A stretch of DNA of 64,000 nucleotides. Origin: Ceratodon purpureus. Its lineage: Eukaryota > Streptophyta > Bryopsida > Pseudoditrichales > Ditrichaceae. The notes under the pieces are model-generated. The model saw only the letters and a list, made by a program, of their open reading frames with translations. It was not told the origin of the DNA and made no database searches. The translations under genes and the position numbers were made by a program. The stretch spans positions 73,460,303-73,524,302 of the forward strand of contig CM026426.1 of the NCBI GenBank assembly GCA_014871385.1. Reading direction: 5' to 3'. The stretch's first letter is position 1, and every line of letters begins with the position of its first letter. Shown piece by piece: positions 5,744 to 53,467 of this stretch.

Positions 5744-5749
5744 TATACC

Positions 5750-19521: not shown

Positions 19522-19524
19522 TTA

Positions 19525-30000: not shown

Positions 30001-30481
30001 GAGTGAAGGGGAGTTTGATCGACCTGCCACGCCCGGACCTCGAAATTCTAAGCGATTTTCAGCTGTCTCGACACTTCTGGAGTCAGGGGGAATAGATGCG
30101 GAGTTGGAATCAACCAGCGTGGGGCGCAAACGTAGTCGATCTAAGCATCCGACAGCTGGCCACATGCATAAGTTTAAGAAGATAGTAGAGATGGCAGCCG
30201 AAGAGATTCTCGGACCTGTACCAGGTGCGGATATGTCGGGGACGGGTGGAGCTACTGACATCGAACCCACTCCAAAGCCGCGGAAAAGAAATGTGGGTCG
30301 CCCCCCTAGTGCTTCCAAGTTGCAAGGTCAGAGGAATTTAAAGGGTGCTGCACCTGCAACAAAGATACCTGCTGATCCAGCTTCAACGACATTAGCATTA
30401 CAAAAAGTAGTGCAACTACGGAGCACTCTAAGACGGCGCGAAGTTCAAGAGACAGTTCCAGTGAAATTCAGGGGTATGTAA
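27053..30481 (+). CDS. VDWA-family protein with zinc finger, RING and AT-hook
   Basis: Three phase-compatible exons: 27053-28484, 29277-29473, 29636-30481. In order: the VDWA domain (DEPPNKEITLSFARG, GRNVNWAQFAAE), charged and coiled-coil regions, a Cys/His finger like that of the 48872 protein (CPVCSLWYECF, CGHTYHPYC), then a RING-HC finger assembled across the second intron (CEVCK, ACGHDVFCFVC, CPVC), an acidic stretch, and an AT-hook (KRNVGRPP). RING fingers usually give ubiquitin-ligase activity; an AT-hook binds AT-rich DNA; both point to the nucleus, by inference. The first exon is interrupted by two in-frame stops, one between coiled coil and finger and one after the finger, yet the frame and splice phases are kept. 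It may be a recently damaged gene, two genes, or differently spliced. Confidence 0.55.
28485..29276 (+). repeat. T-rich intron with reiterated TTCCTTTATTCC words
   Basis: Intron of the RING gene. From about 28740 the sense strand repeats variants of TTCCTTT(A)TTCC(G)TTCC. The stretch 28954-29068 (CCAGACTCTCGATTTCC, CACCTAGGTTTTTAAGTCC) matches the two flanks of the giant transposon (32690-32757 joined to 51215-51250), so it is a dispersed repeat that also shows the element's empty site. Confidence 0.6.
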
Positions 30482-32748: not shown

Positions 32749-32758
32749 TAGTCCTTTC
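32749..32758 (+). repeat. left target-site duplication TAGTCCTTTC
   Basis: Ten bases, identical to 51205-51214, directly bordering the giant element. MULEs typically duplicate 8-11 bp. The flanks beyond both copies form one continuous sequence similar to 28954-29068. Confidence 0.85.
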
Positions 32759-32834
32759 GGGCGAGACTTGTATGCGAGCGGTGAGCGGTGAGCGGAGAGC
32801 GGTGAGCGGAGATTTGGAGAGCGGTGAGCAGAGA
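32759..32834 (+). repeat. left terminal inverted repeat and GAGCGG array
   Basis: Starts GGGCGAGACTTGTATGCGAG, followed by alternating GAGCGGT and GAGCGGA units up to about 32834. Inverse of the right end at 51136-51204, with the last 17 bases (ATGCGAGCGGTGAGCGG) identical. Confidence 0.85.
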
Positions 32835-32941
32835 ATGAGGTCTTAAATCTAAAAACAGTAATTTTTTTACTAAAAATAAATTCTATAATTAAAAAAGTGG
32901 AATATTCCAAGAATATTCTCTGCCTGTTTTTAATTTTAGCG

Positions 32942-33038
32942 ACCCTATTACCGTGGACGCAGTTCCAGTTTTAATACATTTCTACCCCATTACCGTGGAT
33001 TTAGATACTTTAAAAAAATTATTACCCTATATCCGTGG
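32942..33038 (+). repeat. subterminal motif ACCCTATTACCGTGG, three copies
   Basis: Copies at 32942-32956 (perfect), 32984-32998 (ACCCCATTACCGTGG) and 33024-33038 (ACCCTATATCCGTGG). The inverse copy lies at 51087-51101 and a half-site (CCACGGAAAT) at 51024-51033. Placement at both ends in mirror orientation suggests transposase or accessory protein binding sites. Confidence 0.6.
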
Positions 33039-33429
33039 TCCTAATCAGGGTTCATTAATAATTGTTAAGTACCTCATATGTTCATATGTGCGTGTTGTTG
33101 GAAGTGAGTACGATAGATTAACTAACTTTTATTGTCATACGTCCATTTTAATATATTTCTTAAATTCTTTCATTTCATTCTTCGTTATGATCATAATTTT
33201 TATTTATTTATTTATTTATAAGTATTGAATTTGTTACCCTCCCCATGATCTTTCAATCTACCTATCTTTTCAATTCCACCTCTATTCGTCTATTCTATTA
33301 CTCTATTGTATCTTTCTTTCATCGATGAATTTTATCCCCTTTTCGTCTTCCAATTTGGTTGCTCGTTTTCTTCTTCATTATTCTTTGTTCATTCTTAATT
33401 GTAAGATTTCTTCCCATTCCAATTTATTT

Positions 33430-33949
33430 TTTTGGTTCTGTTATCCCTTGTTTTAAGAACACCCCTATTCAGTTGCCTTTCTTGATTTTCATTTTCAACC
33501 TTTAGTTTTTATTTTCCTTTTTAATATATATATATATATATATATTTTTATTAACTTCATTTGAATCTATTTTTGCGAACTTTCTTTACATCCATCTCTA
33601 GTATCTTTTTTCTTTTTCAACTGAAAACATGTTTTCACATTTCAATTTTCTTTTTTGGCCCTCTTTCTCTCTTGGTGTACAAACACCCTCCTTGAGTTGC
33701 CTTTCTTAATTTTAATTTTCAACCTTTGACTTTTTTTTTTTTTTTTTTTTTAATTTTAAATTTTTATTAATTTCGTTTAAATCTATTTTTGCGAACTTTC
33801 TTTACATCCATCTCTAGTATCTTTTTTCTTTTTCAACTGAAAACATGTTTTCACATTTCAATTTTCTTTTTTGGCCCTGTTTTTTTCTTGGTGTACAAAC
33901 ACCCTCCTTGAGTTGCCTTTCTTAATTTTAATTTTCAACCTTTGACTTT

Positions 33950-33984
<35 letters not shown>

Positions 33985-34010
33985 TTTTTTTGGTCTTTTT
34001 TTTTTCTTCA
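33430..34010 (+). repeat. tandem repeat of about 216 bp, T-rich
   Basis: Two near-identical units (for example GCGAACTTTCTTTACATCC at 33575 and at 33791) plus a diverged partial unit before 33540. Joints are simple repeats: (TA)n near 33523, a T run near 33731, and (TTTA)n near 33949. Non-coding; lies between the left end and the first cargo gene. Confidence 0.75.
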
Positions 34011-34276
34011 TTTTCCTTTGATAATTCTAAACGATCTTTAAATACCGACGCCTGTGCTTTTGCTTAATTTTTCTTTGTTTCCTTATCGAGGAATGTAATG
34101 TGGCCTATCCAAGTCACCCCATTTAGTAGGATGAAATCCGTTAAACAATATATTTTCCAGCTTTCAAGGGCGCCAAGCACCTACCTCATGGATATTTAAG
34201 TGGTGGCAACGCAAGGTCTCTTCCTCTTTGTTCATTGTCATCTCCAAGCAATTTCCTGAAGGAAGGTGTTTAGGCT

Positions 34277-34717
34277 ATGGAAGATGCCGGGGATACTGCT
34301 CTCTCCCTGGATGATGTGGAAGGCCCATTTCATCCGTTTGTGGAGGTTGAGGAAGCTGAGGAGAATGGGTGCAATGAAGATCATACTAGAAATGGTGACT
34401 TCGATGTAGCATTAGACGTGGTAGGAGAACCATTGGCTGTTGTAGAGCCAAGTTGTCTCGTAGTACTTGAAGAGGAGCCGGTTGTGCCATTGCCACCTCA
34501 TGCATATTCCAAGGTTGGGAAGATTCCACCTGGGACTTATTCTAGGGAAGCATTGCAAAGAAAGAGTGTAGCTCGTCCATTGTTGAAGCGTCCCCAAGTG
34601 CCAAGAGGGGAACAAAGTGTGAACGTGGATGTAGCTTGTCCTGTAGCACAGCTGGAGTTTGGTAATTATGCTGAAAATGCAAATGGGACACCTAAACGCA
34701 TTAAGTTCAAAGAATAA
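34277..34717 (+). CDS. small acidic protein, giant-element cargo
   Basis: Open frame of 146 aa with ATG at 34277, about 80 bp after an AT-rich TATA-like word (ATATTTAAG near 34191). The first 80 residues are strongly acidic (VEVEEAEENGCNEDH; LEEEPVVPLPPHAY); the rest is neutral to basic, with VGKIPPGTYSREALQRKS and a basic end (GTPKRIKFKE) that could be a nuclear signal. I recognise no family. MuDR has a second gene of unknown role (mudrB); by analogy this could be an accessory protein, but nothing shows homology. It converges with the transposase gene, whose stop lies 261 bp away. Confidence 0.55.
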   Translation: MEDAGDTALSLDDVEGPFHPFVEVEEAEENGCNEDHTRNGDFDVALDVVGEPLAVVEPSCLVVLEEEPVVPLPPHAYSKVGKIPPGTYSREALQRKSVARPLLKRPQVPRGEQSVNVDVACPVAQLEFGNYAENANGTPKRIKFKE

Positions 34718-34977
34718 AAGAGTTATTAATAAGTATTGATGGCATTAGTACAGTGCAACTGTAGTGGATAGAAAGAACAGAGGGCACTTGTCCAATGCAA
34801 AAGCTATTGTTACACAATGTAATAAATGTGAATGACAAAACCTTTATATTGGAATAGGCAATACGAGATTTGTATTGCTGACTCAGTACAAGGAAAAATT
34901 CAATCACAAAAGACATGGCCTCACCCTATACCACCGTCCACTAGGTGAATACCTGTCCAGAAAAAGTACTCTCATTA

Positions 34978-37900
34978 CTATTTCTTTGCCAAAGGGTGAG
35001 TCAAGATTCCACTCTCTAGAACTATCTTGACCTCGTTGAAACTAAAGGTGGGCGCATGGATGAAAAGATCGGCGTCCGGGTCACGATTGCAGACCTTCAA
35101 TAGAATGTAATAAAGGTGCTTGCAATAAGAGAATTGCGTCCGTCCTCTGAACTTCGTCATGGTCTTTCTGAATGCAGGGCAAGTGCAAGCTGGGTAGGAG
35201 CTGATGGTGATGTGGTATTGTGTGATGGCTGGAGCAACGCCGGAATCTAGCCCGATGATGCAACCATGGCCCGGGTGAGGTATCATAGTGACAGAGCGCA
35301 AGCGAGCTTTGAGTGAGTCGGATGAGCCCATTGAGAGTCGCTGCGCCGGATTTGGACGAGTGGCAGTGCGTTTCACCATCTTGCCGTCTCTCTTACCAGG
35401 GTAGCGGTCAGCTTCTGCAGGAACAAGTACTGATCTCAGATTTGCAGGAGGAGGGGCAGCAGAGAAGAGGCGTCTCGGGGAGACGGGGATCTTCTTTGGG
35501 AGTTGAAACCCTGCCGCTTCGAGTGCTCGAATTTCCGTGAGATTTAGGTTTGTACCTAGCTTGACCGGCCAAACCTCTGGAATCGGAGGCATCTCTTGGT
35601 CCTTAGAGTATTTGGCAACCCACCTGCGTCTCGTACCCTTTACACACCTCTCGATGTCGTCGGAGCTGAAAAAGAACTCTGTCTTCTCAGCTATGTTTCT
35701 GCGAAAGTTAGTCCAGACTCCGGTGTAGGTAGGTGCTGCAGTTGAATTAGCACCCCTTACAATCCTCTCGGTACACTTCTTCTTCGTAACTGCTCTCTGT
35801 GCCCAGCAACACTTGGCGGAAGTCTTGAGCAGTCTTGAAATGTGCCACTCCTTGACATTTACCCTGGTTTCTTCAACTGCATTGACATGACGAACCCCCT
35901 TCTCGTTCACAGGTGATGATGGGGTATCCTCGGATGATGCTGCCGTAGGTTGAACTTCAACTACCTCTGTCTCATCTTCGATGTCATCTTCAACTATGAC
36001 AGGCATTGTCATAGTGCGAGCCCTGACAGAACGTCCTGAACCTTTAGGATGAGAATAGTTTACCTTGTCCGGACGATGTGATTCTTCTTCTGCTCCAATA
36101 GGAAGGTCTGCCTTCCGCTTGATAGACCCAAACACTTCTTCTCCTGGCATGTGAGGCAGTCTTGTGCAGAACTCATGTGCACCGGGCATCTCCAACATCG
36201 CATCCTCTAGCAGTATGGGGTTTCCTGTCTTTTTTGCCCTGCGTTCAGCGTTCCTTAGCTTGAGTTCCTTCTTGGATGGTCCCGTTCCGCCCACGTCACC
36301 TTTCAGGAACTGGTAAAAGTTGACGACCTGTAGAAATGCACGGACGAAGTCGTCCACAGTAGCAACATACAAATCCTGGCCATTGTTCCCTGAAGCTTGG
36401 AGCCATTTGTTGTGGACAGTTTCGGCCAGGTTGCATGAAGGCATCTCTGAGAATTCTTCTTCTGTAAATTTCTGCAAGGGGGGCACACAAAGTTTTAGAA
36501 TTGATAAATAAATCTTGACGAGAGAGCTTAATTTGAAGAAGTAGGCCAATAAGTTACATAGGAATTATCATACCTGAGTCATGAAGCCTCCCCACTGTCG
36601 AATACGGTAATGCCAGAATGCAAGCCAGAGCTCAAGCTTGTTCAGGGCCTTCTCCGACACTATTCCTGCGGATACTCACCAAGCGCGAAGGGCGTTGTAC
36701 AAGGTATCCGCTTCTTCCATACTCTGCGCTTTTCTGTACTAGTGACACATTTTCTTGTGCTGTTCCCACAACTCCTCTGGGATGTGCTTCTCCGTGTGAT
36801 TGACCATGGATTGTGTCCAATGGAACAGGCAAGTTCTCTCTCTGTCCACCATCGGGTCCTCCTTATTGCCATTTCCATACACAACTCGAACTGCGTTCCA
36901 GTTGGCTTGAGCGCTGTCCGCCATGAAGCCCTTAAAGTTTGGCACCTTGACGCCATTCCTTTCCATGACCAGGTTGAGGTTCTGCCAAAATAGAATTTGG
37001 GCTTGGCTATCCTCGGACTGCATGTCACATGTGGCAATCGTCATGACACGACAGTAGGTCGAGTCGTACACGTGGCACGCCATCGTGGTCCAGTACTTTA
37101 CTCTTTTCACATGATCAAACATGACCCATGCGTTCTGCAGATCTTCACCGGGCTGCATTCTTCTCACCAAGTCGACGCCACTTCCAGGTCCAACTTCAGA
37201 CATCTTGAAGAGGAACACCTTGTCAAGATCAGCCCCCTGCCCTGGAAACTTGTTCTCTTGGACATAGGCCCAAAGACTGATACCACGGAGCTTGGTGATG
37301 GCGTCCATGACTCCGTACCTTCTCAGCAGCCTGAATGTCATCACCTTGTTGCGGATATTTGGGGAAGCCATGTCCTTGCACCGGTCAAGTACGGGAACAA
37401 GCTCCTCCATCGTCAGTTTCCTCGGGGGTGCATCTTCTGGCTGAAGAAGATAACTGCCAATCAGGACCTTGCTCGCCTCCAACACGACGGCACTCTTCTT
37501 AGCTCCAGGAGTATTCTCAACTTGTTCCTCGATCAGGTTATTGATCTCTGTCTTAGAGTCCCTATAGTCCCCTACCTTGACTGGGTGATCATGAGTCCCA
37601 ACATGGATACATGCCCTAGTCTGATTTAGTTTGCCATAAACATAATAAATCTTAGCTCCACATGTAGCAATACATGCAGGAGGTTCCTTACATACCTTGC
37701 AGACCAGTGTTGAACTTGTTGGGGGTGGCTGACCCACCAGAAACGCTTGAAGGGTACATCCTTCAAACTCCGTCTCGTTGACCTTGGCGATTCGAGGCTG
37801 ACGGTTCAGAAAGTCACAGTCTTTGTTGTTGCATCGCAGCCAACCAGCGCAGACTGAGTAGCGAAACGAAAGGCCAACGTCGTTAGTGATGTTGGTGGTC

Positions 37901-38734
37901 TTCGTCTTGGTCCAGACATGGCCATCGTAACGCTTGTCCATTCCTTGCATTGCCTTGGCCTGCAACTTCGCAGCTCCTTTAACAATTGGGGGAAGCTCAA
38001 AAACTACAGGACCGTCGAACACTGCAGGCAAGTACTCAACCTTCTCGTGTCTCACTCTTGAATAATCTATTTTTTTGAGAATGTTTTTTCTTTCCAGGTC
38101 TCTCCGCAAGTTTCCTAATAAGCGGAATTACACTAACAGCCTCCTCTTCTACGGATTGGGAGGTACTGGCACATTTGTCTGGAAGTGTAGTTGGCAAGCT
38201 AGATTCTACAGCCTGTCTTGGAACATCAGGTGATGCTTTCAGAGGACTACTCTCCTCGTCTGAGGAAAGGGATATGACAGGCGTCACAGCTGGAGTATCT
38301 AAGCCAGGCTCTACCTTCACCTTGACATCACGAGGGAGAGGAGTCTGAATAGTACAAGTAGATGACCGACGAGGAGTTAGAATCTCAGTGGACGCCTGCA
38401 TCTGGGACTCTGTGAGACCATAAACTCTGTACCTACCAGGATAAAGGTTCCAGAACCTGTTATCATCATCATCTTTCTCAGAAACCTGATCTTGGGTATG
38501 TGTGATCACATGAGTGATCTCAATTGTCTCATTGTCATAAATCTCTTCCTCTACACTAATTGTTTCCTCTCTGAAGTGAAATCTGAGGCTAAGGCGTTGT
38601 GCCGTCACAAATGCCAAGCCATCCTCATCTACACGTACTGTAAGTGGAATTCCAACACCATGTGCCCTGAGCACGGCCATGCCTAACACTCTGTCTGCAG
38701 GGAGATGAGCCATCGCAGGGAGGGAGGAAAGCAC
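34978..38734 (-). CDS. MULE transposase with N-terminal zinc finger and SWIM finger
   Basis: Cut-and-paste transposase of the giant element. N-terminal acidic Ser/Pro-rich region (38734-38036); then NILKKIDYSRVRHEKVEYLP; a Cys/His region ending RACIHVGTHDHPVK, like WRKY-GCM1/FLYWCH fingers; the MULE core with WVMFDHVKRVKYWTTMACHV, FKGFMADSAQANWNAV and CLFHWTQSM; an intron 36472-36573; and a C-terminal SWIM finger (CTCPAF then YCKHLYYILL). Damage: the N-terminal frame and the core frame differ by one base at a run of six T (38084-38089, plus strand), and two in-frame stops occur (TAG, plus 36739-36741; TGA, plus 36676-36678) while sequence beyond them still reads as transposase. I judge it recently inactivated. 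The remnant at 18463 is a relative. Confidence 0.85.
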
Positions 38735-39229
38735 TTGAGTAAAGAATTCAAAACTCTAGAATGAGAGGAATGTTGCTTCGATTGTCATCAATTTATGCAA
38801 TAGTGTAACTGTCAGGACCCACCTAATTTTCAAAAAATACATCAATGGACGAATGTAGTTCGTTAGGTTATCTGGCATGAAAATTTATTTTTATCATGTA
38901 GCCGCCCATTCTAATCGGGACATCATGCTAAGAAGTCTACTTGCTCACCAAATTCTCTATGATTAGGATTAGCCGTCTTTCCAAGCGGAAAGTAGACGAA
39001 TGTTCTGAATATAGAATGAATCATGAATTCTAACTATTTAGTGGTTTATTTCTAGGCCTAAGCTATTTAATATAGATCTAGTAGGCATTTAGGTTTCGGG
39101 TGCGAAGCATTTTGGGTTTATATACCTTTGGCAGGTTCCACTGTAAGTCTTTAGAGCTGAGGAGTGAGGGCTGGTACTGGGTCTGCGTTTACGTACTGGG
39201 TCGCAATCTGGTTTTGGTTTCTGAGTGTC
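38735..39229. promoter_or_regulatory. shared upstream region of two head-to-head genes
   Basis: About 0.5 kb separates the start of the transposase (minus, at or just below 38734) from the first ATG of the ParB-methyltransferase gene (plus, 39230; in-frame upstream Met at 39164). TATTTAATATAG near 39063 and TTTATATACC near 39117 are candidate TATA words for the plus gene. The arrangement suggests a bidirectional promoter, by inference. Confidence 0.45.
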
Positions 39230-42200
39230 ATGCAGGCAGAGGCCAAGAAGAAGAGAAAGAGAAGGACTACGCATTATAGTAACCGGAAGGCACTAGTTAG
39301 TAGTAGAATGGCAAAGGTTAAGAAACTTAATCAGAGGTTTGAAAAGAGTGGAATAACTAGAGTATTGGAGTTTCAAGAGACGCGAGGTGTAGATAGAGAA
39401 GAACCTAAGGAGAACACAAAGCAGTACGAGCGTCGTGGGAGGAACGCGAGGATTGTGATGTCTGAGAAAAGTGTCACAAACGAAACAGAGGTGAGCTTTA
39501 TTTAACATCTTTTCATTCTGCAAAGATCGAAATTGTTCTGGATAATTCTCTTTAAAGTGTTGTTTGGATATTTCGTTATGATATGTTCATTCTGATTGAA
39601 AATGGAAGCCATTGCAATTTGATCATACCAGGAGTCTAGGTAATCGTCGACTGTGTCACAATCATTAGTATGACGGCGCCCGCATTTTTATTGGAGGCAA
39701 GTCACATCAAGCATTACAAACTTATTATAACAATTCATTCACATAAAGGATTATGATTGGAGACTTCGTATGGTGATTCCCTAGTTAGACAGTGACAAGT
39801 TAGTGGAAATGGTTAGACTAGGTCGGCTAAAGTTACTTGGGCACATTATTCTATCCTTTATAGCTCATTTTAATAGTTTTCATCCAAGCTTCTTTGATAC
39901 GAGACATTCAGTACTTCTGAATATTTAAAGTCGAGCCTCGGTTGTCACATCTTCGCCATAGCTTCTTGTTCTTTATCTAATATTCGAGTTGCTGAAATGG
40001 TATGCTTTGAGTCCCCTTCTCCCAAAGTTTCGCTTAAGGGTTTAGGTCGTATGCTACCTCAGTAGTTTCTGAACAGCACTCTTGTGTCTGCAGGTGCGAA
40101 ATCGCATCTCACCCACCAATTCTGGATCCATGGAGGTGAACAAGGGCCAGCGTTCGGGAAGCGCAATGCACGCCGGTGAGGCCCAGGGCGAGGCATTGCA
40201 GATTGCTGGGGCTGAGGATGACACATGGGGCGGAGCGGAGGACGCAGCCACGCAAGGAGGCGATGGGGAGGATAATTTAGGTGATGCTGAGGACGACGGA
40301 ACCGACATCCGAATGACACAGCAGGACACTAGTGGTAAGTTTAATCAATATTTTTCGATTACTTTGGTTGCTCTCTGATGCAATGCTTAGGCGATGCCGG
40401 CGCCGGCATCGAGTTTAAGGTCGCTGTCTCTTAACGGAATTCCTAGGTCAGTTTCGGGTGGGGGTGAGTTCTATTAAATCTCTGGTATGATAGTTGGCTT
40501 CGAGAGGGTAGATACAGTCTAGAGGTTACGTGTCTTTATGGGATGATGCCTGGTATGCTTGGTATGCTTGGTCTGGAGTTAGCCATTAGCTTGAGTGAGT
40601 GCATCCGCAATGACTTGTTGGCATTCTAAGTGTCGAATCTACTTCTCGCAAAAAACTGTCCGAACCAATGCCGCTGCCGGCATCACTTAAAGCGTGCTAT
40701 TTTTCTTGAGTCCAGGGTCTTGAGATTGCCGAATTTAGTCTTGTTAATTAACCGAAATGTTATCATTCTTGCGTAGCCGGTTTTTTCATATGAGATATGT
40801 TCATATCGAAAGAGTGGACTTGGCCCAATGCCGGCAACGGCATTACCATTTCGTTGAATTCTGGTAACTATATATGCCAGAGTTATTGCCGGCTGCGCCC
40901 AAGATTTCTTTTTGTTTGGTAAAATGGACTTGCTTTAAGCAATGCCGGCAACGGCATCACTTGTAGACTGAAATTTTATTTGAGATAATCTTAACAAATA
41001 TTACCTTCTAAAACCGAACTGTCCTGGGAAACTCTTATAATGCATTTCTAAATTCTAAGTCTGAACCTTTGCTGTTGACGGCATCTCTCAGATGGCCTTG
41101 TTTTTATTTTTCAAAGAAGTCATTTTATTAATGTTCCAAGTATTGCCGGTAACGGCATGTACATTTTCGTATGCCTTTGAATATCTTAGAAGCACAGTTT
41201 TATTCAATGCGGTGAGCACAATTAACAGAAATTACTAAGTAATATGTCGAATAAATAGAGAAAAACCGTTGCCTGTGCCGGCAAGGCTCATTTTGATGTC
41301 AGATTGGCCCCTTATGCTAACTTCCGGCTTCGGATCGCCTCCTTAAGGGCCTGCCTGCACCGGCAGGGGCATCAAGATGGATATTGTATAAGTTTTTCTT
41401 GAGATTTTAATTCAACATAGGTGTCGATCAACAGTATTGCCGGTAACGGCGTTGGTCTTTCAGAATGATTTGACTGTGAGTAAGCTGATGTAGACGGCTC
41501 TGCCGGTGCCGGCATCGAATATCCACTGTCTTATTTAAGATTATTTGTTATGCTGACGATGATGCCGGCAACGGCAGCAGCAATGAGGTGTTTTTATTCT
41601 AGTGTATATTCGAAGCTTCCTAGTGTAAGTTGCTCCTCGGTACCATAGACTGAAATGGAAAATGCGAATGGATTTAAGTTCTTACTTCCAACTGTGCCTT
41701 TGCAAAATCCTCATTCAGTTTTGGTTGACCTGTTCGCATTACTATGAATGCTTATATAAAATGCTTGTTACTCACGATATTTTGTGATGCCGGTGACGGC
41801 AATGGTTAATTCATTGATTTTTGAGAACCGAAATGTGAATTTTACTTGGCACATTAAAGTCTTTCTAATAGGCTGAATTTTTGGATCACCAATTTTTTTG
41901 CAGAGCCAGACCCGATTCAGCTCACCCGGAGTGAAGTTAATTCCAAACTTCATGATCTTGTTGGTGCTGCAACTGGCAATACGGCTTCTCGTTTGGACGC
42001 CCTGAAGTGGGAGCCAAAGTCCAAGAGTAGACTTAGAATTCCCCTTTGCAGGATGATTTCGCTCCCCGTTGTTCGACTGTACCTCAAGAGTGATGTCTCT
42101 CACCTAGCTTCATATTTTATCGCCAGTGGGTATATGGAGGGGAACGGATTCTTCTATGTGTCTGTTGTGGATAACAACGGACACTCAACTGAGATTACCA

Positions 42201-45200
42201 GAGAGATAGCAGAATCGTGGAGTCCAGAGTGGCGGCAGGTGAACGACGAATTTGAGAGAATGCTTCAAGCAGACGAAGACTTGTGTGTTTTTTCCAATTT
42301 GATGTTTATGGTTTGGGACGGCAATCACCGATTGCAGGCTTGGATGCCACTAATCAACGAGTACCATAAGGGTGATATATCATGGCATTATGCCGTGGAT
42401 AGTATCATCCTGGATCCTAAGGGTGATGTACCAGCGGTTGTAGCGGTACTTCATGACGTAAACTGGTAATATCTTCAACCACTTAAATAATGAGTTGGTT
42501 ATTGCTTGATAGTGATTTAGAATTGTTGATTGCTTTCGAAATCTTGCTGTTATTAATAACCAAGGCCTTACTGTGAACAGGGGAAATCAAAAATCGCATG
42601 TCAAGGCAAACATAGTTCACAAACTATACCGAATTCAGTGCATAGCGCCCCAACCAATATCCTACTTCGAGGGACTTGTCTCCAGCGCTGCTCTAGAAGC
42701 TGCTAAGATTAAGCAGGCAGGAAGGACGCGGACATGGTATACCTTGACTCTGGAATCTCTGAACTCAGTTCTCAATCAGGTAAGATTTCTTTTCTGATTT
42801 GATTTCATATAATCGATATTTCGTAACAGATAGAGAGACTAACATAGTTGGTTTTGAACTCGACTTTTGTAGCAAGAGCTCGCTGAGGCCGCAGCTATGG
42901 CTGAGCGAAAGTTCTATGAGAAATACCCTGAAGAACGACAGTGGACAAACAAGTCAGTTGATGACTGGGTCAACCAGGCCGTGAAGAAGGTGGAGAACGG
43001 TCAGCAGTCGGACTTAAGAAAATTATTGCCAATTGCGGACCCTGAGCTCGGGCCCGAATTTCTTCAGGAAATAAAGTTCCATTATGAGAAGTATGATGAC
43101 AACGCTGAGATGCTTAAAGAGAAGCTCTGGATGTTTGCAACATCTGCTATGCCGAATAAAATGAAGATCAAATGGCTTCAAAGGTGGAATTCCTCGTATG
43201 CCATTAGGGAGTCGCACAAGTTCCCGAAGAAGAATTTCTCTGACGTAGTCTTTGGGGTTTGGCTACAGAAAGCTAGATGGTGGGCACAGGTATGCTAATT
43301 GAGTTTTCCATTGTATTTGATTTCGGGTTTAGAGATGAGGGTTTTGAGTTTTCCATTATATTTGATTTCGGAATTCGAAACCACCATGACGTTTTGCATC
43401 AAGCTCATCCTTGTGTACGTGGGCAACCTCGTGGAGGCCTTTGTGGGATGGTGGCGGTTACTCCTGATGCAATGCCGTTGCCGGCAGGGTACAAGAACGA
43501 TATCCGTCCAAGGTACCGGATACGGATGAGGGTACCGGTACGGAACTTAGAAGGGTATAGATAGGTGGTCAAAGGGTGTTGCCGGTGTCCATAGGGGTGT
43601 TGCCGGTGCCGGCATTGCCCCGTAGAGCTGCGACGGGTGCTTGGGGAACGGGGTCTGGGGAAGTTGGTGGACGGGATGGGGTCCCTTGATGCGCTGCCGT
43701 TGCCGGCAGTGCTTCAGAAGGCACCGACAGGGCATGGAGAACCGTGTTAGGGGCAGGGGTGAGGGACGATCTGAATGGTGAGGTGGGGTGGGGTGGGGTT
43801 GGGTGATGTCTCTCTTCCTTTATTATTTGACTGCTGCTGCTGAGCCATGGTGGGGTGAGGTGGGGCTTTATATGGTATATTTCCTTGGCCTTCGGATGGA
43901 AGGGATCCCCACAGTAGGATTGTCTCTGATTGAGATGCATGTGACTGATTAAGGTGGATATTGTGTATAATGCCCAATTCCTTCCTCCTTTTCTCATTTT
44001 TTTATTATCATTTCTTTACCAGACAGTTGTATACATTCGTAAATCATGGGTTGGGAGGAATGAGATGCTCAGTTCGTTCTTCTAATTTGGTTGTAATTTG
44101 ATTATCCTAATTTCAAATATACTATTTGTCCTAATTTCGGAAACAGATGGAAGATTATCCCAGTGTAGGAGTTACGTCAGAATGAACAGCTCTAAACTAG
44201 CTTACATAATGATATTGAGTTTTTATTCTTCTTATCAGTGAGTACTGTTTGAGTATTTTGATGTTGTTGTATTGGAGACTCTGGTACTCGGGATTGATAT
44301 ATAGATTTGTGGAAATAGATGTGGAGTGAATTCTGGAAGGATTGGCAATCAGATGAAGTTACCGGCTTGATCTGCGAGTATGGGTGGTTTTAAAGGGTGC
44401 TGAGGTGATATTATTTAACGTTATTAATTTATTTCATATTGATTGCATTACAGTTGGCTGTCGAAGCCGAGGAGCACTTCAAAAACGTTATTGACGACAT
44501 GGGGGTTCAGATTCAATACAACCCGGATGGGCAGGACCCAGTGGAGAAAATCTTTGATTACGTAGATTCAATGCGATGCAACCTATGGGAAACTGCCTTC
44601 TTCCGCGAATTTAAGGGCCAGGATCCAGTGCACAAAAATAAACCTGCGAAAAATCAGCCCAACTTCTATCCTGCACTTCGAAGGGTCATCTACAGGTATT
44701 TTAAATACATCCTTTTTCCAAGGAAGGCAATATCCAAGGTGCCGGCATTCTTCCCAAATTATCTGGATATAAATGGGACTGAATGCATGTATACTCCAGC
44801 CATCTTGAAGGCATGGGACGCATGCCATTATGAGCGATGTGGTTGGTATCTGGACTGCCCACCTGCGAAACCGCCATCGTTTGACATAGCTCTCAGAGAC
44901 TCCTTGCAGCCAGCGCTGTCCTCGCTTCCGGCCTCTACACCAACGCGACGTTCAGCAGGTTCTCCTCAAGAATCAACACCAAAGGGCAAAGCCACGGCAA
45001 AACCGGTAACGTCACGTGCAGGAAAGCGCAAAGCACCGGAAGTAGGCGTCGATGAAGATGACGAAGACATCCCAGCCCTGAATGTTGCTAACGCGAAGGT
45101 AGGCGAGGCAGGTGCAAGAACAGGAACGAACACTGCCATCACGGTCAACCAGGAACCGCAACCAAAGAAGCGGGGGGGTCAAGCTCCGCGAGCGGAGGGG

Positions 45201-47203
45201 GCAGCAAAACCTCATGCAGTGGCAGAGACCGACAGTCGCGTAATGGATTTTACTCCACCTTCAGTTAAGTCAATGTCACAAGCTCAAGGTGGCTCCACTT
45301 CGACTGCATCCTCTGAAGTACTTATCCTAAACGATTCCGTGCATGGAATGCTAGCCTATAAAGCCAAGCATGGAAAGTTTCCACCAGCATTCGAAGAAAT
45401 GAATGCTTTCCTTACCAAGGCAAGTAAATAATGTCGTACCTACTTTTCTGAAACTCAATTCTGCTTTTAAATTTCTTTTCTTATTTATTCCTTCCTTAAC
45501 ACTTCTAACACCTTATTTGTAAATGGACTTAACGCCCTGAGCGGAGGTGCCATTGAGTACATCAATACTTCTTTTTAATTGCCCTTGTAGTTTTATCCTC
45601 CCTCGGCCCAAGTTATTAGAGGTCCAGCTTCTTCTTGGCACTGCCGACAACGGCATACCTTCAGTTAGTACAAAAATATTAAATCTACCTCACCCACTCA
45701 GTAACTCACCTTATCGGCTTGTCAAGTGTATCAGGGTCTGCCTAATATCAGTCCCATTTTCTCTTAATTTTTGCTCTCTCCAATTCAGTATTTCGTACTT
45801 GTTTTTGATGTAGTTTGGATTTGTTTATTTGAGTACTGCCGGCAATATCTGAGGCACATGAGATTCTATTGTCGCCTCTTCCAGATTCTTACAAGCCGTG
45901 TTTTATGTTTTTTAGGTTGCCGGCGGAAAAGAGTTTTACTTTCTGGGACGACTCCTACTGAAACCAGCTGCGGACCTTATCATTGTTGAGTTTCCAGATG
46001 GACTACCTGTTCCTGGACTTTCCAGTGACCCTCCGACAGTGCCAAGTTGGAATAGGAGTGTAAAGGATTTCCTCAAATTTATAATTGGATTTTGTGGGGG
46101 TTACTTGCACGACGATGGAGCTCTTCTAATTTTTTATCCAGAGAACTCTCAGATAAGGAGGGAGATCGAGTCATACCTTAAGAACAACGATCTCAAGGTC
46201 AAGGACGAGTGGACAATTATCAATTCGATGCACCTTACTCATCCCACCAACCCGTCCAAATATGTAAGCAAAAGTCCTGAACTTCTTGGTTATATTGTTT
46301 TTTTCTGGTTAATGTTCTTACTAAACTACCCTTGAATTGCAGACCCTGAAGTTTCGAGCTATTCTGATGGTCCGAACCATTGCAGTATCATTGAGACAGC
46401 CTAAGGAGTTAGTCATTAAGACTAATCCACGCTTCGGAAAGGTGAAACTCGAAAAGGATGACTGCATTAACAATGTCGTCACCGAGGATTCGGCTCTGAA
46501 GGTCCTGAAGGATGGGACACTTTGGAGAGGTCCAAAGGAGAAGGCAGTATCCTTCATGGAGTTGCTTATTACGGGCCTCAGCCCAGTCAATGGCATTGTA
46601 ATTGACCTTATCGCTGGAACAGGTATCCTACCGAAACAAAATAATTTTTGAATTTATTATTCTAGTTAGTATTGAATTTGTGTAACTGCTATTTAGCATT
46701 TGTTTGTATTTAACAGGAGCTTCTATTCGAGCCGCAAAGAACACTGGAAGGCACATTCTTGCGCTAGAGGCTGACACAAGCCTCTACAACGAGGTGCTAG
46801 TGCCACTTCTGCCTGCCCCTCCTACACTGACTACAGAGGTTTCCACGCTGGATGACGATGATGAACCCCTACCGGACGTTGATCGCATCAATATTTGTAA
46901 GTAAGTCCTTTATTGTTTGAGTCTAAAATTTGTCTTACGTACACATCCAAATTTTTACCATATGAACTGACTCTACAACTGTATGGCAGTTTAAGCCCGA
47001 GTGGCTCTTGGCTTGGATGGCAGTCACCATCGACTTCAGACCTCGTGCTCCCCTGTTATGCAGAAAGTGCGGCCAGAGAGATGGCCGAGAATTCCTCTCA
47101 AAGCTCTAGCGCCTCATCTTCACCATTTGGTAGATTTGACCCTAGGGCCCGCATTTTTCTAGATTTAAGTGCTTCAGAATGCAAAGACGAGTACAGCCTT
47201 TAA
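39230..47203 (+). CDS. ParB-like / DNA methyltransferase-like fusion, ten exons
   Basis: Exons: 39230-39490, 40094-40334, 41904-42465, 42581-42779, 42873-43289, 44454-45419, 45916-46263, 46343-46622, 46717-46900, 46990-47203; every junction keeps phase, giving about 1,223 aa. Order: basic N-terminus (KKKRKRR, residues 6-12); acidic Gly/Asp region; ParB/Srx-like domain (about 207-355) with LRIPLCRMISLPVVR and DGNHRLQA (306-313); charged middle with a KRKAPE basic patch; a class-beta N6/N4 methyltransferase-like domain (about 883-1120). There the SAM motif reads DLIAGTG (1086-1092) with HILALEAD after it, preceded by RGPKEKAVSFMELL. The catalytic DPPY position reads EFPD (907-910), so activity is doubtful. 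ParB-methyltransferase fusions are known from phages and bacteria. One intron is GC-AG (donor at 45420). Likely nuclear. Confidence 0.8.
40395..45655 (+). repeat. intronic hairpin motif TGCCG-N4-CGGCA, twelve perfect copies
   Basis: Perfect copies start at 40395, 40669, 40829, 40943, 41144, 41501, 41563, 41788 (intron 2), 43473, 43601, 43695 (intron 5) and 45642 (intron 6). Loops are GCGC, CTGC, GCAA, GCAA, GTAA, GTGC, GCAA, GTGA, TTGC, GTGC, TTGC and ACAA; five are GNRA tetraloops. Imperfect copies occur at 41070, 41271, 41352, 41438 and a half copy at 45837. All perfect copies are intronic. In RNA each would fold into a 5-bp GC-rich stem. Confidence 0.8.
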
Positions 47204-48540
47204 GCACTTAGTTTAATTTTTATTTGATTTTTACACTTTTAATTTGAGGATTATACATGTACTGGATTAATGTGTATTCTGGTAATTGATGATTTTCATT
47301 TTTTTTCCATTTATCCCATCTATATCTTTTCATACTTATACTCTTTATTCATACTTTCTATCTATTCACAATCACTTTTTGTCTTTCACTCTACTACCTC
47401 GCGATCAATCTCTCTGTCCATGTCGCTTTACCCCGACTCCCTGTGCATGTTGGTTTTCCCTTATACCTCCCTCACCCCCACTCCCTATCCCTCCCTAACC
47501 CCAAGTCCCTGTCCCTCCCTCACCCCCGCTCCCTATTTCTCCCTCACCCCATCTCCCTGTCCCTACTTCCTCCCTCACCGTCACTCCCTGTCCCTACTCC
47601 CTTACCCCTCGCTCACCCCCACTCCCTTTCCCCTCCCTCACCCCCACTCCCTATCCCTCCCTGACCCTCACTCCCTGTCCCTACTCCCTTACCCCTCGCT
47701 CCCAGTCCCTACTCCCTTACCCCTCGCTCACCCCCACTCCCTTACCCCTCCCTCACCGTCTCTCCCTGTCCCTACTCCCTCCCGCACCGTCACTCCCTGT
47801 CCCTACTCCTTTCCTCTCCCTCACCCCCACTCCCTATCCCTCCCTCACCCCCACTCCCTATCCCTCATTTACCCTCACTCCCTGTCCCTACTCTTTTACC
47901 CCTCCCTTACCCCTAATCCCCGTCCCACCCTGACCCCCACTCCCTACCCCTCCCTAACCCCCACTCCCTGTCTCTTCCTCACCCCCGCTCCCTATTTCTC
48001 CCTCATCCCATCTCCCTATCCCTACTCCCTCCCTCACCGTCACTCCCTGTCCCTACTCCCTTACCCCTCGCTCACCCCCACTCCCTCACCCCTCCCTCAC
48101 CCCCACTCCCTATCCCTCCCTGACCCTCACTCCCTGTCCCTACTCCCTTACCCCTCGCTCCCAGTCCCTACTCCCTTACCCCTCGCTCACCCCCACTCCC
48201 TTACCCCTCCCTCACCGTCTCTCCCTGTCCCTACTCCCTCCCTCACCGTCACTCCATGTCCCTACTCCTTACCTCTCCCTCACCCCCACTCACTTACCCC
48301 TCCCTGATCCTCACTCCCTGTCCCTACTCTCCTACCTCTCCCTCACCATTACTCCCTATAACTCTCTCACCCCTGCTCCCTGTCCCTACTCCCTTACCTG
48401 TCCCTCACTTCTTCACCCTGTCCCTTCTCCCTTCATCTTACCCCCCCTTCTACTCCATATCCCTCCCCTTACCACTCCCTCTTCGTCACTCCCTGTCCCT
48501 CCCATTACCCCTCCCTCACGAGAGTCATAAATTATACTCA
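47204..48540. repeat. C-rich minisatellite (CCCTCACCCCCACTCCCTGT-type)
   Basis: From about 47443 to 48535 the plus strand is an array of variants of CCCTCACCCCCACTCCCTAT and CCCTGTCCCTACTCCCTTAC. A higher-order duplication of about 460 bp is visible: the block beginning CACCCCCGCTCCCTATTTCT occurs at 47521 and 47981. The long open frame through it is an artefact of the repeat. The minus strand has many GGG/GGGG runs and could form G-quadruplexes. It sits between two convergent genes. Confidence 0.85.
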
Positions 48541-48871
48541 AAACAGTGGCATGGAACAGTTTTAAACAAATAAACAATCTATAGTAAGATCAAATTGTTC
48601 TAGTGGTGTGGTGTGCATCGCACCCAATCAAACAATACTTTTTAATCAAAAGCATACATGAAAGTCTGAAGTTATCCTTAGTCACTTCAATGTTAACTGA
48701 CCATAGGAGTTACCGATATGCTTAGATTTAAACTATTGAAATGCTCGTAAGTAAACCAAAATTTCTGCCTCAATATGTCCTTAGTGCTGCTCCTATAATA
48801 CTACTTACATCTAGAAGAAAAATAAAATAAAGCCGCCGTTTCAAAATCTATGTTAAGTCGTGGTTGTATTT
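48541..48871. other. 3' spacer, no gene seen
   Basis: AT-rich spacer between the minisatellite and the stop of the convergent gene at 48872; nothing recognisable. Confidence 0.4.
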
Positions 48872-50380
48872 TCAACTCTTGGTACGAGTGATTGCTGACG
48901 CATTGTTGCTATCACTTGCAGCCTTCAAAACTGCCTGGAAACTGGTAACCTCTACTTCCTGCTGTGTGTCTAATTCGCCACCAAACTGGGCAACCCATGG
49001 TTCCGCAAGGTGAATTGGAGACGATGCTAAGAGCAGGTCTTTGCAAACTTTGCAACGATAGTTACGGCAAGATATCATTTCTGCTGCACACGGAGGGTGG
49101 AGAAAACAACCACAAGATGATAGAACCGCAGCTTTCCATATGAAACCCAAACCACAGTAAGCACAAACATTCTTACCTGGGTAACCCAATGGAGGAATTG
49201 ATTGCTGCTTCGGATACTGAAACCTTCTAGGTGTTTTTAGGCTAAGCATCTGTGCTCTTGCCACTTTGACTGCTGCCTGACTCTCATGTAACTCCTCGAT
49301 AGCTCCCTCCAAGGCTCTTGCTTCGATACCCATAGCTACTTCCAATTGAATAACATTCTCGCGGATTTGTGCTTCAGACTCCCTCATGTCAGACAGTTCT
49401 TTGAGCAATGCCTCTGATTCTTGGATTGTTCGCTTGTACAATACTGTGGCACCCTTTGAACGTAGAACTTGACGCGCCTCTTTGAGTTTGGAGACGTATT
49501 TGTTGTTAAGATCTTCTTCTGCAATATCAGTAGATTCAGCACTCATCCTTGCGAGACAAGTATTGTACCTCTCTCGCAATTGATGAAGAGGTTCTTCGAC
49601 AACCTTCAGAACTTCAATCTTCTTCTGCTCCACCTCCAGTGCTGCCTGGAGCTCACGAATCAGGAGATCAGGTTCTCCCCCACCCCTACTTGTGTTGCAC
49701 AAATCCTTGATGATGGTGATGAGGCCCTCAACCTGACATCTAGTGGCGACTGGTCCTAGCTTAGTCGGATTTCTCCATGCGTTCTTCAGTCGAGCTTCAT
49801 GGCGGTCCAATGCCTCAGCGCACCAATTCACTGATTTTCCGTGAACAAAAGTAGCAAAGCATGCCTTGAGAAAACGAAGGCAGAAATAGTTGTTGTGGGG
49901 TCTATTACCGTAAACCTTGAAATACTGCTGACCAAAAATCTTGAGTTGCTCCTCGTCTTCGCACCTAGAGAAGTCGTATCGCCCCTTGGAAACTCCTTCC
50001 TTCCACACTGCCGTGACTTCTTCATCAGAGATAAAGCTATAGCACTTGGAAACATCACGTAGAAGCGGCCCCTGATCCGAAAGGCCCACCACAGTTGTAA
50101 AGAACTCCTTTCCATACACACCATCACGACCCATCAACATAGGAGCAGCCACAAGCATCCGTTGACGCACCCCTATCTCAATTTCTCCAAGTTCAAAAGG
50201 GTCGGAGAACTCTTCGGTGCTGAAGACTCGGTCACTGCCGCCTTCTCCATCACTTCTACTTGCTGTGTTGTCGTCACTAACCTCTTGGGCATCAGGAGCA
50301 CGCTGGGTTGCACAATGCTGTCTAGTTATATGTTGCTTAGTCCCTTTCCTCCTCTTCCCTGTCATTTTAGTATCTAACAC
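48872..50380 (-). CDS. VDWA-family coiled-coil protein with RING-like finger, 502 aa
   Basis: Single intact frame near the right end of the giant element. In order: a basic N-terminus (TGKRRKGTKQH); a region shared with the 787 gene (RQRMLVAAPMLMGRDGVYGK; QQYFKVYGNRPHNN); the core motif GKSVNWCAEALDRHEARLKN; GPVATRCQVEGL; a long coiled coil (about residues 230-390); and a Cys/His finger near residues 415-460 (CAYCGLGF, CGCFLHPPC, CRNYRCKVC), RING-like in spacing. The initiator could be the first Met or the second (MTGKRRKG, five codons on). The finger suggests protein or DNA contact; a ubiquitin-ligase role is possible but unproven. It is the only VDWA-family member clearly inside a bounded transposon here. 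Confidence 0.8.
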   Translation of the reverse strand: MLDTKMTGKRRKGTKQHITRQHCATQRAPDAQEVSDDNTASRSDGEGGSDRVFSTEEFSDPFELGEIEIGVRQRMLVAAPMLMGRDGVYGKEFFTTVVGLSDQGPLLRDVSKCYSFISDEEVTAVWKEGVSKGRYDFSRCEDEEQLKIFGQQYFKVYGNRPHNNYFCLRFLKACFATFVHGKSVNWCAEALDRHEARLKNAWRNPTKLGPVATRCQVEGLITIIKDLCNTSRGGGEPDLLIRELQAALEVEQKKIEVLKVVEEPLHQLRERYNTCLARMSAESTDIAEEDLNNKYVSKLKEARQVLRSKGATVLYKRTIQESEALLKELSDMRESEAQIRENVIQLEVAMGIEARALEGAIEELHESQAAVKVARAQMLSLKTPRRFQYPKQQSIPPLGYPGKNVCAYCGLGFIWKAAVLSSCGCFLHPPCAAEMISCRNYRCKVCKDLLLASSPIHLAEPWVAQFGGELDTQQEVEVTSFQAVLKAASDSNNASAITRTKS

Positions 50381-51135
50381 ACAACCTACCCTGACCGCTC
50401 TCTAAGTTTGTTAACAAAATCTCTCAAAAACTCTGCACTACCAAAGAAGGAAGACAGAAAAACCATATCTCTATTGTTAACAAGCGAACAAAACGTGAGC
50501 CCAGTAAGAAATGATGCTCTGTGCTAATCCAAGCCGCAACCACATGACCATATTAAACATTCCCATTATGAATGTGTGAAAACATTGATATGTAGAAGGC
50601 ACATTCATTTGAAATAAAGAACAACATCATTTGAATTGAACTTCTCGACGCTAAATAGTTATGAGCAGAGTACATATTGGCTTGGAGTATAATAAAACGC
50701 CTTAAGAAGTTGTAAACATAGATTACATCTATTGATCTCAACCCCTAATCTCTAATTCTCAGAACCTCTACTAAAACAGTAATAGTCTTAAGTTTTACAT
50801 TTATTTTTTTCTAAATAATATCCACAGTTTCATCGTTTCAGTAAACATATAAAAAATATGGATGCTTGTTGTCAATCGGGAAAGTATATGAAACAGATGA
50901 AAAAATAGGATTTTAAAAAGCGCAATGGGTCTATAAACAGACATGACGTCATCATGACGTCAGCCCTAATTTTAACACAAGAAAGTATATTAGGATTAAT
51001 ATTATTGTTATTGATAATTATTTCCACGGAAATACATCCACTTAGTTTATAAATTCTTAAAATAGAAGTATAATTTTAGAAACTTCCCACGGTAATAGGG
51101 TACATAGTTTTATAAAATAATTGATGAAAAGTCAA
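50381..51135. other. right inner flank of the giant element
   Basis: AT-rich sequence between the last cargo gene and the right end; no gene. It includes TGACGTCATCATGACGTCA at 50944-50962, two overlapping CRE/TGA-type TGACGTCA palindromes that could act as bZIP sites upstream of the minus-strand gene, and the inverse subterminal motif at 51087-51101. Confidence 0.5.
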
Positions 51136-51204
51136 ATCTCTGCTCGCCAATTGCCGCTCTCCGCTCTCCGCTCTCCGCTCACCGCTCGCATGCTAACTTT
51201 CCCC
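51136..51204 (-). repeat. right terminal inverted repeat and GAGCGG array
   Basis: Read inward on the minus strand: GGGGAAAGTTAGCATGCGAG, then GAGCGGTGAGCGGAGAGCGG and more units. Inverse of the left end at 32759-32834. Confidence 0.85.
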
Positions 51205-51214
51205 TAGTCCTTTC
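51205..51214 (+). repeat. right target-site duplication TAGTCCTTTC
   Basis: Identical to 32749-32758. The sequence after it (TATTTTTCCGGACTCTCCC) continues the T-rich dispersed repeat interrupted at 32748. Confidence 0.85.
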
Positions 51215-51616: not shown

Positions 51617-53467
51617 ATGGAGACGTTTTATTATCCAGAGAAACCTTGGTTCAAGTACGTCTGCAAGCTTAACGACAATGGACTCGTCCCCGGTGGATCT
51701 CTGACTCAGGAGCACGTCAGCAAAGAAGAATGCCGCCAGATGTTTGTATACGCGGGAGATCGTTCTAACAATGGCTACAGACTTAATGCTAACACAACGT
51801 TCTTCAACGAAAGACTTCAGTGGATATGGCTTCGAGTTCACCAGGTGGAGAAACCACCAAACAACGACTTCGGATATAGCTTTGCTCAAGCTATTCTGTA
51901 CGAGTACAAGACCGGAGAGGAGGTGGATTGGGCGGAGTTGGCAAGTCGCACCATCAACCGTTACAGCCGCACACGTGGAGTGAAGCAAGTGCATCCTCTG
52001 TGGGCTTGGGCTTACCCGTCTGTGACCATAGACATCGCGACCGGTCTGCCTGTTGGCACAAACTACCACTTTCCGAAATCTCTTGGCTCTCGACCAATTC
52101 GAAGGTCTCTACTGTCCCCTGAACAGGTGCTCATTCTGACCTATATTTCTCTGAATGCTCTGTCTAGATTGATGCATCTGATTTATTGCCACTTGAATTC
52201 TTAGAAATATTTGTGGAATGACGTGGCTTATATGTACAGTTTGGCATGCCGTGGGGGGTATTCTAGTTGTGAGTGTAGTTGTATTCAGGTTACAAGGCCC
52301 ACTGGTATTGAAGTCAGCTGCTTGCACTATACTGAATCAGAGTTTCTAGGGGTTGCTGAAGTTAGTGTGTTTGAAAGTTTTTGGTAACCGTAACTACTTA
52401 TTGTAGGAGGTTGTTACAAGTTAGAGAAATTGGACAGTAACTGAATTTGACTATTCTCTTTCTTTATTTTGGTAGGTTCTTCACATGCCGAGACCTGAAA
52501 CTCGGTCTACGCGTAAATTAAAGCTTGAAGAGCGCTCGTGCTCCTCAGACAGCTACACCGAGAACAGCGGAATTACAGAGAAAAAGAAAAGACGGAAGTC
52601 AGCGGTCTATGTGGAAGCACCGAAGATTACAATGTCTAGAGCTCATATGGGGATTGAAGTTGGGACCACATCAACTCCCACGACCCTTTCACAGGTCCAA
52701 ACATCCCCCAACCGCATGGCAAATGACACGGTAGAGCCACCACAGAAGCCGACTGAGACCGATTCTGCCGGGTGAGATGGCAGCTTCCTTTAATTGTACA
52801 CATGCTTGTTGTCACTTCCGTCGTCATACTTTTGAATTTTGCTCGATTCATGAATTGACTTCTTCTCTAGTACTGAGCGGATAAGATCTATTTCTACGCA
52901 GACCCGCCAATGTCGGTTTGATCCCAGTTCAAGCATCCTATCCGCGAGAAGTTATCGGTGCTTTGATGCATTTTGCACGTGACATTCCGAAGATGTGTGA
53001 AGGTATTCTCTCCAACCTTGAGCTTCGTAAAGCCAAGCTTCTGGTCGCGTACGACGGTGCCAAACAAAAAAGATCATTTGCATTCTCCACCAAGGCTGCC
53101 CTGTTCACGGAACTGCTACAAGCAAAACAAGCTTTTCTAGACAACAACGATGATAAGACTCAAGGTGAAGTTCGTTACGCCCAGACTGCCTTGAAATGCG
53201 CAGAAGAGAAGCAGGAGATTGCTGCGAAGGAAGAAAATGATGCGTTATCTGCATTGCAAAGTGTCTGTGACAATATTACAGAAGGGCGTAAGGCTCACAG
53301 GGTACTGGAGAAACATTTCATCTTCAACAACGGATCAGGTATGTATAGTTCCTTTCACAAATTCCTTTAATAACAGATGCTATAATTTCCAGTCTGACTT
53401 ATGCTACTTTTCTTAATTTATACGTATTTGACTCTAAGTTGTGGTACTTTCTGCAGATTTTCCTTGA
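51617..53467 (+). CDS. VDWA-family protein, four exons, 417 aa
   Basis: Exons 51617-52126, 52476-52771, 52902-53338 and 53457-53467 join in phase (0, 2, 1). The first exon carries the domain: NNGYRLNANTTFFNERLQWI, then KPPNNDFGYSFAQAILYEYK and TGEEVDWAELASRTINRYS. The second is Ser/Thr-rich with a basic patch (EKKKRRKSA). The third is helical (RDIPKMCEGILSNLELRKAK; YAQTALKCAEEKQEIAAKEE), probably coiled coil, and the last adds a few residues. The NNGY start of the domain is shared with the decayed 15329 copy (NNGYVIDACKDRRQRQ). The frame is intact. It begins 400 bp outside the giant element, which may have separated it from upstream exons. Function unknown. Confidence 0.7.

Follow-up and report, generated by a model that had tools for sequence, protein, structure and literature searches.

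The stretch of Ceratodon purpureus DNA analysed here (64,000 nucleotides of contig CM026426.1, assembly GCA_014871385.1, positions 73,460,303 to 73,524,302 of the forward strand; referred to below as the window) contains at positions 32749-51214 one DNA-transposon insertion of about 18 kb, which is bordered by 10-bp target-site duplications and holds a broken Mutator-type transposase gene together with three genes with open frames. One of these, a ParB-methyltransferase-like gene, carries in its introns an array of short interrupted palindromes, and this arrangement suggests that the element may recognise and control itself. The class of cargo is already known from algal transposons; the palindrome array is new here. 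A previous, sequence-only reading of this DNA had placed four genes between the termini, and all four were found there.

The borders of the insertion are sharply defined. The exact 10-mer TAGTCCTTTC occurs twice in the window, at 32749-32758 and 51205-51214 (both on the + strand), each copy directly outside a terminus (GGGCGAGACTTGTATGCGAGCGG at the left and GGGGAAAGTTAGCATGCGAGCGG at the right, reading inward), and when 58,081 pairs of 10-mers were compared, using 250 bp per border, it was the single identical pair. The left terminus (32759-32835, + strand) starts with GGG and includes ATGCGAGCGG and six GAGCGG units, and the right one (51149-51204, - strand) consists of five inverted GAGCGG units, CCGCTCGCAT and a TTTCCCC end. 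Inverted arms of 43 nucleotides, 32772-32814 and 51149-51191, are 91% complementary. The first 100 bp of the element contain six of the 17 GAGCGG units found on that strand of the window, and the last 100 bp contain five of the 11 inverted ones; ATGCGAGCGG is present once at each end and is absent from the remainder of the window. The identical 10-bp repeats at imperfect inverted termini and the inverted GAGCGG arrays, on which the previous reading was built, were thus confirmed, as were its mirrored subterminal motifs in their exact form. Three exact copies of TTACCGTGG occur in the window, two at the left (32948-32956 and 32990-32998, + strand) and one at the right (51087-51095, - strand), none of them more than 250 bp from an end, but with one mismatch allowed the count was 14 against 9.44 expected, and 10 of 100 shuffled sequences reached 14, which is not above chance.

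The duplication, exact over 10 bp, lies within the range of 8-11 bp that defines Mutator-like elements (MULEs), and the terminal inverted repeats of such elements are represented by the imperfect arms. The transposase gene (34978-38713, - strand) was assigned by its motifs, namely CxxH (CLFH, 36820-36831) and a C-terminal SWIM-type CxC...CxH (35116-35187), which are associated with the DDE transposase and the SWIM zinc finger of MULEs, respectively. Its reading frame is broken by a frame change near 38090 and by in-frame stops at 36739-36741 and 36676-36678, and one intron of 102 nucleotides (36472-36573) is proposed. A related transposase fragment was observed outside the element at 18464-18595 (+ strand; 67% identity over 42 amino acids at 18470-18595), from which the site near 38090 differs by a net length of one base. 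In Pfam no MULE or SWIM family was found for the transposase (exon 1 to an expectation value (E) of 1, exons 2 and 3 to E 10); weak rows for DUF6283 (0.06) and AMP-binding (0.2) were below the cut-off and were not believed. The single-sequence AlphaFold model of exon 2 was unusable, with a mean predicted local distance difference test (pLDDT) score of 32.3. Exon 2 had no relatives in IMG/VR, where, as in the GTDB search mentioned below, only close relatives were detectable in a collection not meant for eukaryotes. The element is likely of Mutator type, judging from the 10-bp duplication and the motifs; the gene that the previous reading took for a MULE transposase has CxxH and SWIM-type motifs, is interrupted in frame and owes its label to these motifs and the length of the duplication. 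Because the frame of this copy is broken, autonomy is weakened: the copy is probably non-autonomous, unless the assembly is wrong at the breaks, and its movement would require transposase from another copy.

The array within the ParB-methyltransferase-like gene is formed by the 14-bp interrupted palindrome TGCCG-NYRN-CGGCA, present in 12 exact and 4 one-mismatch copies between 40395 and 45655. Intron 2 contains 12 copies (8 exact and 4 with one mismatch, 40395-41801), intron 5 three exact ones (43473-43708) and intron 6 one exact copy (45642-45655), so that 16 of 16 are intronic in a gene whose introns make up 4,302 of 7,974 bp. Exact copies outside the array are absent from the window. With at most one mismatch, TGCCGNYRNCGGCA was found 17 times in the window, 16 times within the element and once at 14143, against 0.14 expected from shuffling. 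The YR centre entered the pattern after the sites had been viewed; with the centre left free, 12 exact palindromes and 16 at up to one mismatch were counted at 40380-45860 (0.00 and 0.08 expected), and none and two, respectively, in the rest of the window. When all palindromes with 5-bp arms and spacers of 0-10 were counted without a preset pattern, this one ranked highest in the element (12 copies), followed by an AT-rich palindrome with 7, and the maximum in 60 shuffled elements was 4. A pyrimidine-purine step stands at the centre of all 12 exact copies (background 0.23) and of all 4 one-mismatch copies, and the outer bases of the spacer pair in 3 of the 12 exact ones. Since the central YR is kept in all 16 copies, the outer spacer rarely pairs and the surroundings are little more alike than random sequence, the array resembles the sites of a dimeric DNA-binding protein, for which the ParB-methyltransferase protein is a putative candidate.

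The ParB-methyltransferase-like gene (39230-47203, + strand) was modelled by hand as 10 exons encoding 1223 amino acids, the exon ends being picked to keep the frame open; of its nine introns, eight are GT-AG and one is GC-AG. Exons 7-9 (45916-46900) encode a C-terminal N6/N4-type DNA methyltransferase domain, which matched Pfam PF01555 (N6_N4_Mtase) with E 2.5e-5 and 24.8 bits, just below the curated cut-off of 26.7, and PHROG 3008 with E 7.1e-8; its best match in the PDB, the adenine methyltransferase DpnA, was weak (E 0.054). Such a domain and a location inside a giant DNA transposon are two of the three features expected of an accessory protein of this class, the third being a ParB-like domain, and these two are present. 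When aligned by one program with six enzymes from phages or plasmids, the protein is seen to keep the S-adenosylmethionine (SAM)-binding motif I (DLIAGTG against D-x-x-x-G-S-G in all six) and part of motif X. At the catalytic D-P/L-P-Y/F column of motif IV, the element's protein has EFPD (45988-45999), whereas the six enzymes have DPPY (four), DPPF (one) and DLPY (one); the tetrapeptide (D/N/S)PP(Y/F/W) of active methyltransferases is thus not found there in the six-enzyme alignment. A DPPT tetrapeptide without an aromatic residue occurs 13 residues after EFPD. Two further enzymes with long inserts (L002 and L008), kept outside the alignment, both hold TDPPY. The "epigenetic-type enzyme" announced by the previous reading retains its methyltransferase-type domain, and the word enzyme is weakened by the lack of a recognisable catalytic tetrapeptide at motif IV.

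The ParB-type part was assigned to the ParB/Srx type by one motif, WDGNHR (42314-42331), so that of the earlier ParB-methyltransferase label the second half is borne out by the N6/N4-type domain and the first hangs on this motif; the ParB label is nevertheless plausible because the same pairing has been published in algal transposons. In tblastn searches of phage and plasmid records, the methyltransferase part was matched mostly at its motif X-I end: among the matches listed, 43 of 45 (285 records) and, in a second search, 7 of 7 lay within residues 166-235 of the query, and the 20 matches listed in a third search (264 records) covered residues 93-234. A plasmid tblastn search with the ParB-type part (254 amino acids) gave nothing convincing, the best E being 0.4 among the matches listed, which came from 20 of 29 records, and a ParB_N search of six records returned one plasmid ParB, not used further. 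Relatives were absent from IMG/VR for the ParB-type part and for the middle and methyltransferase part, and from GTDB contigs for a 791-residue part of the spliced protein. A Pfam row for Crypto_dsRNA_S (0.029) in the N-terminal part of the spliced protein was below the cut-off and was not believed.

In our opinion, the reading that best accommodates these data, and to which we give an even chance, is that the ParB-methyltransferase protein binds the palindromes and controls the chromatin of its own element, perhaps by binding DNA and not by writing marks on it. It would bind the palindrome as a dimer and thereby recognise its own element, and once bound it might keep the chromatin of the element open or mark the element in a VANC-like manner. 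With less assurance, given the unrecognisable catalytic motif IV, the methyltransferase domain may act as a fold that binds SAM or DNA and not as a writer. A more specific version, which we find doubtful, is a "parS-like" self-recognition, in which a ParB-methyltransferase of bacterial derivation, turned from writer into reader, would load on the array in its own introns and protect or autoregulate its own family only. If true, VANC-like sequence-specific anti-silencing would have been invented a second time and independently.

Several observations weigh against the preferred reading. The ParB-type part has no match to a ParB-type family or structure (Pfam and PDB to E 10, PHROGs and NCBIfam to E 1), the single-sequence AlphaFold model of the ParB-type exon was unusable (mean pLDDT 44.7), and the "intact" frame of the gene is partly a product of the hand-made model. 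The array and the gene set are known from one copy of the element. The flanks of the palindromes resemble one another a little more than random sequence does (0.305 against 0.256), so some copies may be local duplicates. The palindromes are absent from the other non-coding DNA of the element, whereas the motifs bound by VANC21 occur also upstream of the transposase gene (PMC5735166). A protection of CpG at the palindromes was considered and set aside: the observed/expected ratio of CpG in introns 2, 5 and 6 is 0.79 with the sites and 0.68 without them, compared with 0.75 in exons, which is no clear sign.

Among the closest known systems are algal transposons. ParB-methyltransferase proteins are known from giant transposon families of brown, red and green algae, whose transposases are frequently pseudogenised, and the 21.5-kb transposon Sola1-1_Ec32 of the brown alga Ectocarpus encodes an accessory protein of 1,104 amino acids with a ParB-like part and an N4/N6 methyltransferase (PMC12477816). 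Both Sola1-1_Ec32 and the present element are giant DNA transposons with a ParB-type plus N6/N4-type protein (1,223 amino acids here) encoded on the strand opposite to the transposase, and the broken transposase is shared with the giant algal families. As far as the published description allows the comparison, the carrier is of Mutator type here and of Sola type there, motif IV is not recognisable here, and an intronic palindrome array is not mentioned for Sola1-1_Ec32 in the available text. The algal proteins have been proposed to bind and to modify the elements that carry them, with the binding site left unnamed in the same portion of PMC12477816; the palindrome array offers a concrete candidate site, so that a single protein and a short piece of DNA would suffice to test the proposal. 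A literature search found no Mutator-type carrier, named binding-site array or form devoid of motif IV in the accessible portions of the papers, and the original reports on red and green algae were outside its scope.

A possible functional parallel is provided by VANDAL21/Hiun of Arabidopsis, likewise a Mutator-like element with accessory genes (PMC5735166, PMC10398659). VANDAL elements carry a sequence-specific anti-silencing gene, and the nine-base motif bound by VANC21 is densely represented in the non-coding DNA of that element's own family, including the introns of VANC21 and VANB21 (PMC5735166); VANC proteins induce loss of silencing (PMC10398659). A short motif enriched in the element and dense in non-coding DNA, including the introns of an accessory gene, is found here as well when measured against the 64-kb window. 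Unlike the palindrome, the VANC21 motif YAGTATTAY is non-palindromic and often occurs in tandem repeats, and binding has been demonstrated for VANC21, whereas here it is proposed from the layout of the sequence; the likeness to VANC is one of layout and of putative function. If the palindrome is bound, eukaryotic transposons would have put prokaryotic partition or methylase parts to a new use in recognising themselves, as a parallel to VANC in Arabidopsis.

Other relatives are more distant. Fusions of ParB/Srx-type parts with N6/N4 or adenine methyltransferases are described from mobile DNA of phages, prophages and bacteria (PMC12704722, PMC5512222); in contrast to these fusions, which were compared by description, the gene of the element is interrupted by nine introns and includes a long middle part. 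A ParB match was found in none of the four methyltransferases scanned among the eight retrieved. Bdelloid N4CMT is also a bacterial-type amino-methyltransferase of a eukaryote tied to transposons, on which it acts, but it is a captured host gene with a chromodomain and an SPPY motif and is not described as transposon-borne in the text available (PMC8885841). Mobile elements that themselves encode DNA methyltransferases are known as well, namely DIRS elements with adenine methyltransferases and charophyte and dinoflagellate elements with cytosine methyltransferases, but these are retrotransposons with Dam-like or C5 enzymes (PMC5890265).

Such precedents bear on an alternative that overlaps, as do the other explanations considered below, with the preferred reading and with its competitors, so that the probabilities given need not add up to one. 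According to it, an active N4-cytosine or N6-adenine methyltransferase marks the element, and the palindromes are its targets or are unrelated to it. The preservation of motif I and part of motif X agrees with this, as do the adenine methyltransferases of DIRS elements (PMC5890265), the N4-methylcytosine (4mC) placed on transposons by bdelloid N4CMT (PMC8885841) and the writing proposed for the Ectocarpus protein by its authors (PMC12477816). It is opposed by EFPD at a column where 6 of 6 aligned enzymes have DPPY, DPPF or DLPY, by the loss of N4CMT activity on replacement of the catalytic Ser and Tyr of SPPY with Ala (PMC8885841) and by the want of an aromatic residue in the nearby DPPT, and we regard an active writer as unlikely.

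It is likewise unlikely that the palindromes serve another factor, such as a host transcription factor, the RING-like or the acidic protein, or a hairpin in the pre-mRNA, and regulate the ParB-methyltransferase gene only. Their confinement to the introns of this gene speaks for such a role. Each palindrome could also fold in RNA as a GC-rich stem of 5 bp with a loop of four bases, and 5 of the 12 exact sense-strand loops fit GNRA (GCAA three times, GTAA and GTGA), but the other 7 do not, and GCAA occurs together with its complement TTGC, as would be expected of a site in double-stranded DNA. A hairpin was set aside as the main explanation on this loop pattern; these objections touch the RNA version, and nothing counts against a host factor.

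That the cargo genes are passengers, i.e., genes of the host or of other elements captured by or nested in a Mutator-type element and having no role in transposition, seems unlikely to a similar degree. The intronless gene at 48872-50365 (- strand, 497 amino acids) appears by eye to be of coiled-coil type and has a RING-like Cys/His cluster at 49040-49165; the gene of the previous reading is present, and its cluster departs from the RING consensus. No RING family was found for it in Pfam (to E 1 and to E 10), a row for BREX_BrxC_helical (0.097) was below the cut-off and was not believed, and IMG/VR gave no relatives. Its family is not private to the element, having relatives within the window: one at 853-1461 (54% over 203 amino acids) and a weaker one at 27092-27367 (29%, E 3e-4), the latter linked in its turn to a stretch immediately beyond the right end (51764-51946). 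The small acidic gene was confirmed as an open reading frame (ORF) of 146 amino acids with a net charge of -13 (34277-34717, + strand); it has no family match and, in the window, a marginal match at 28118-28282 (E 0.025).

These outside relatives of the RING-like and acidic genes, and the common capture of genes by Mutator-like elements (PMC13317346), favour passengers. Conversely, the three cargo frames are open (one by virtue of hand-made splicing) while the transposase is broken, the 25 longest of the 46 inverted repeats include no second terminal pair around the ParB-methyltransferase gene, and the RING relative is too diverged for a recent capture. It would be very surprising if two unrelated termini flanked a gene-rich stretch by chance, as pyrimidine-rich flanks and 11 forward 10-mers within one mismatch of TAGTCCTTTC (both duplications included, four near 29 kb) might suggest, since the 10-mer occurs in exact form at the borders only, adjoining matching inverted termini with mirrored arrays, and ATGCGAGCGG is confined to one copy per end in the window.

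The previous reading had further held that the element carries its own DNA-modification and accessory proteins, possibly for control of silencing or transposition. A single transposition unit with its own duplication, carrying a gene of DNA-modification type and accessory genes, was upheld; exclusive ownership of the cargo is weakened because relatives of the RING gene sit outside the element, and so is autonomy. The idea of control gains from precedents, namely the published pairing (PMC12477816) and the VANDAL anti-silencing gene (PMC5735166).

Some smaller features accompany these genes. Towards its left end, the element contains a 216-bp tandem duplication, 92% identical, in T-rich sequence (33518-33949), and a C-rich minisatellite with a higher-order repeat of 459 bp lies just downstream of the ParB-methyltransferase gene (47443-48426). 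The RING-like gene's relative with 54% identity spans 694-1566 and 2315-2899 (+ strand), and its RING-like end is apparently absent. At 27053-30478 (+ strand), a distant relative of the N-terminal part of the RING gene precedes an ORF that matches RING weakly (E 1.1e-4, below the cut-off); together with the acidic-ORF match at 28118-28282, this region may represent an older relative of the element.

In the surroundings, 20 of the 28 flanking ORFs of at least 150 amino acids were compared with Pfam and gave no clear host gene, the best match being zf-C3HC4_3 (E 1.1e-4, below the cut-off); the search for tRNA genes found none, and Rfam gave no match at the gathering score. The ORFs 54856-55902 and 58293-59150 (- strand) belong to no clear family, the second having a weak helix-turn-helix match (E 0.0035, below the cut-off), and may be part of another mobile element. 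Two inverted copies of a long ORF, 81-92% alike in pieces and by eye of coiled-coil gag type, are located at 3828-5744 and 11870-13785, and a third, distant relative lies at 15338-15970. An element resembling the miniature inverted-repeat transposable elements (MITEs) of plants lies at 19255-19521; it has GAGCATCCCC termini and is flanked by TTA duplications (19252-19254 and 19522-19524), and the likeness points to, but does not prove, a host of the green lineage. The segment 60001-62000 is very AT-rich, with a GC content of 0.255 compared with about 0.40 on either side.

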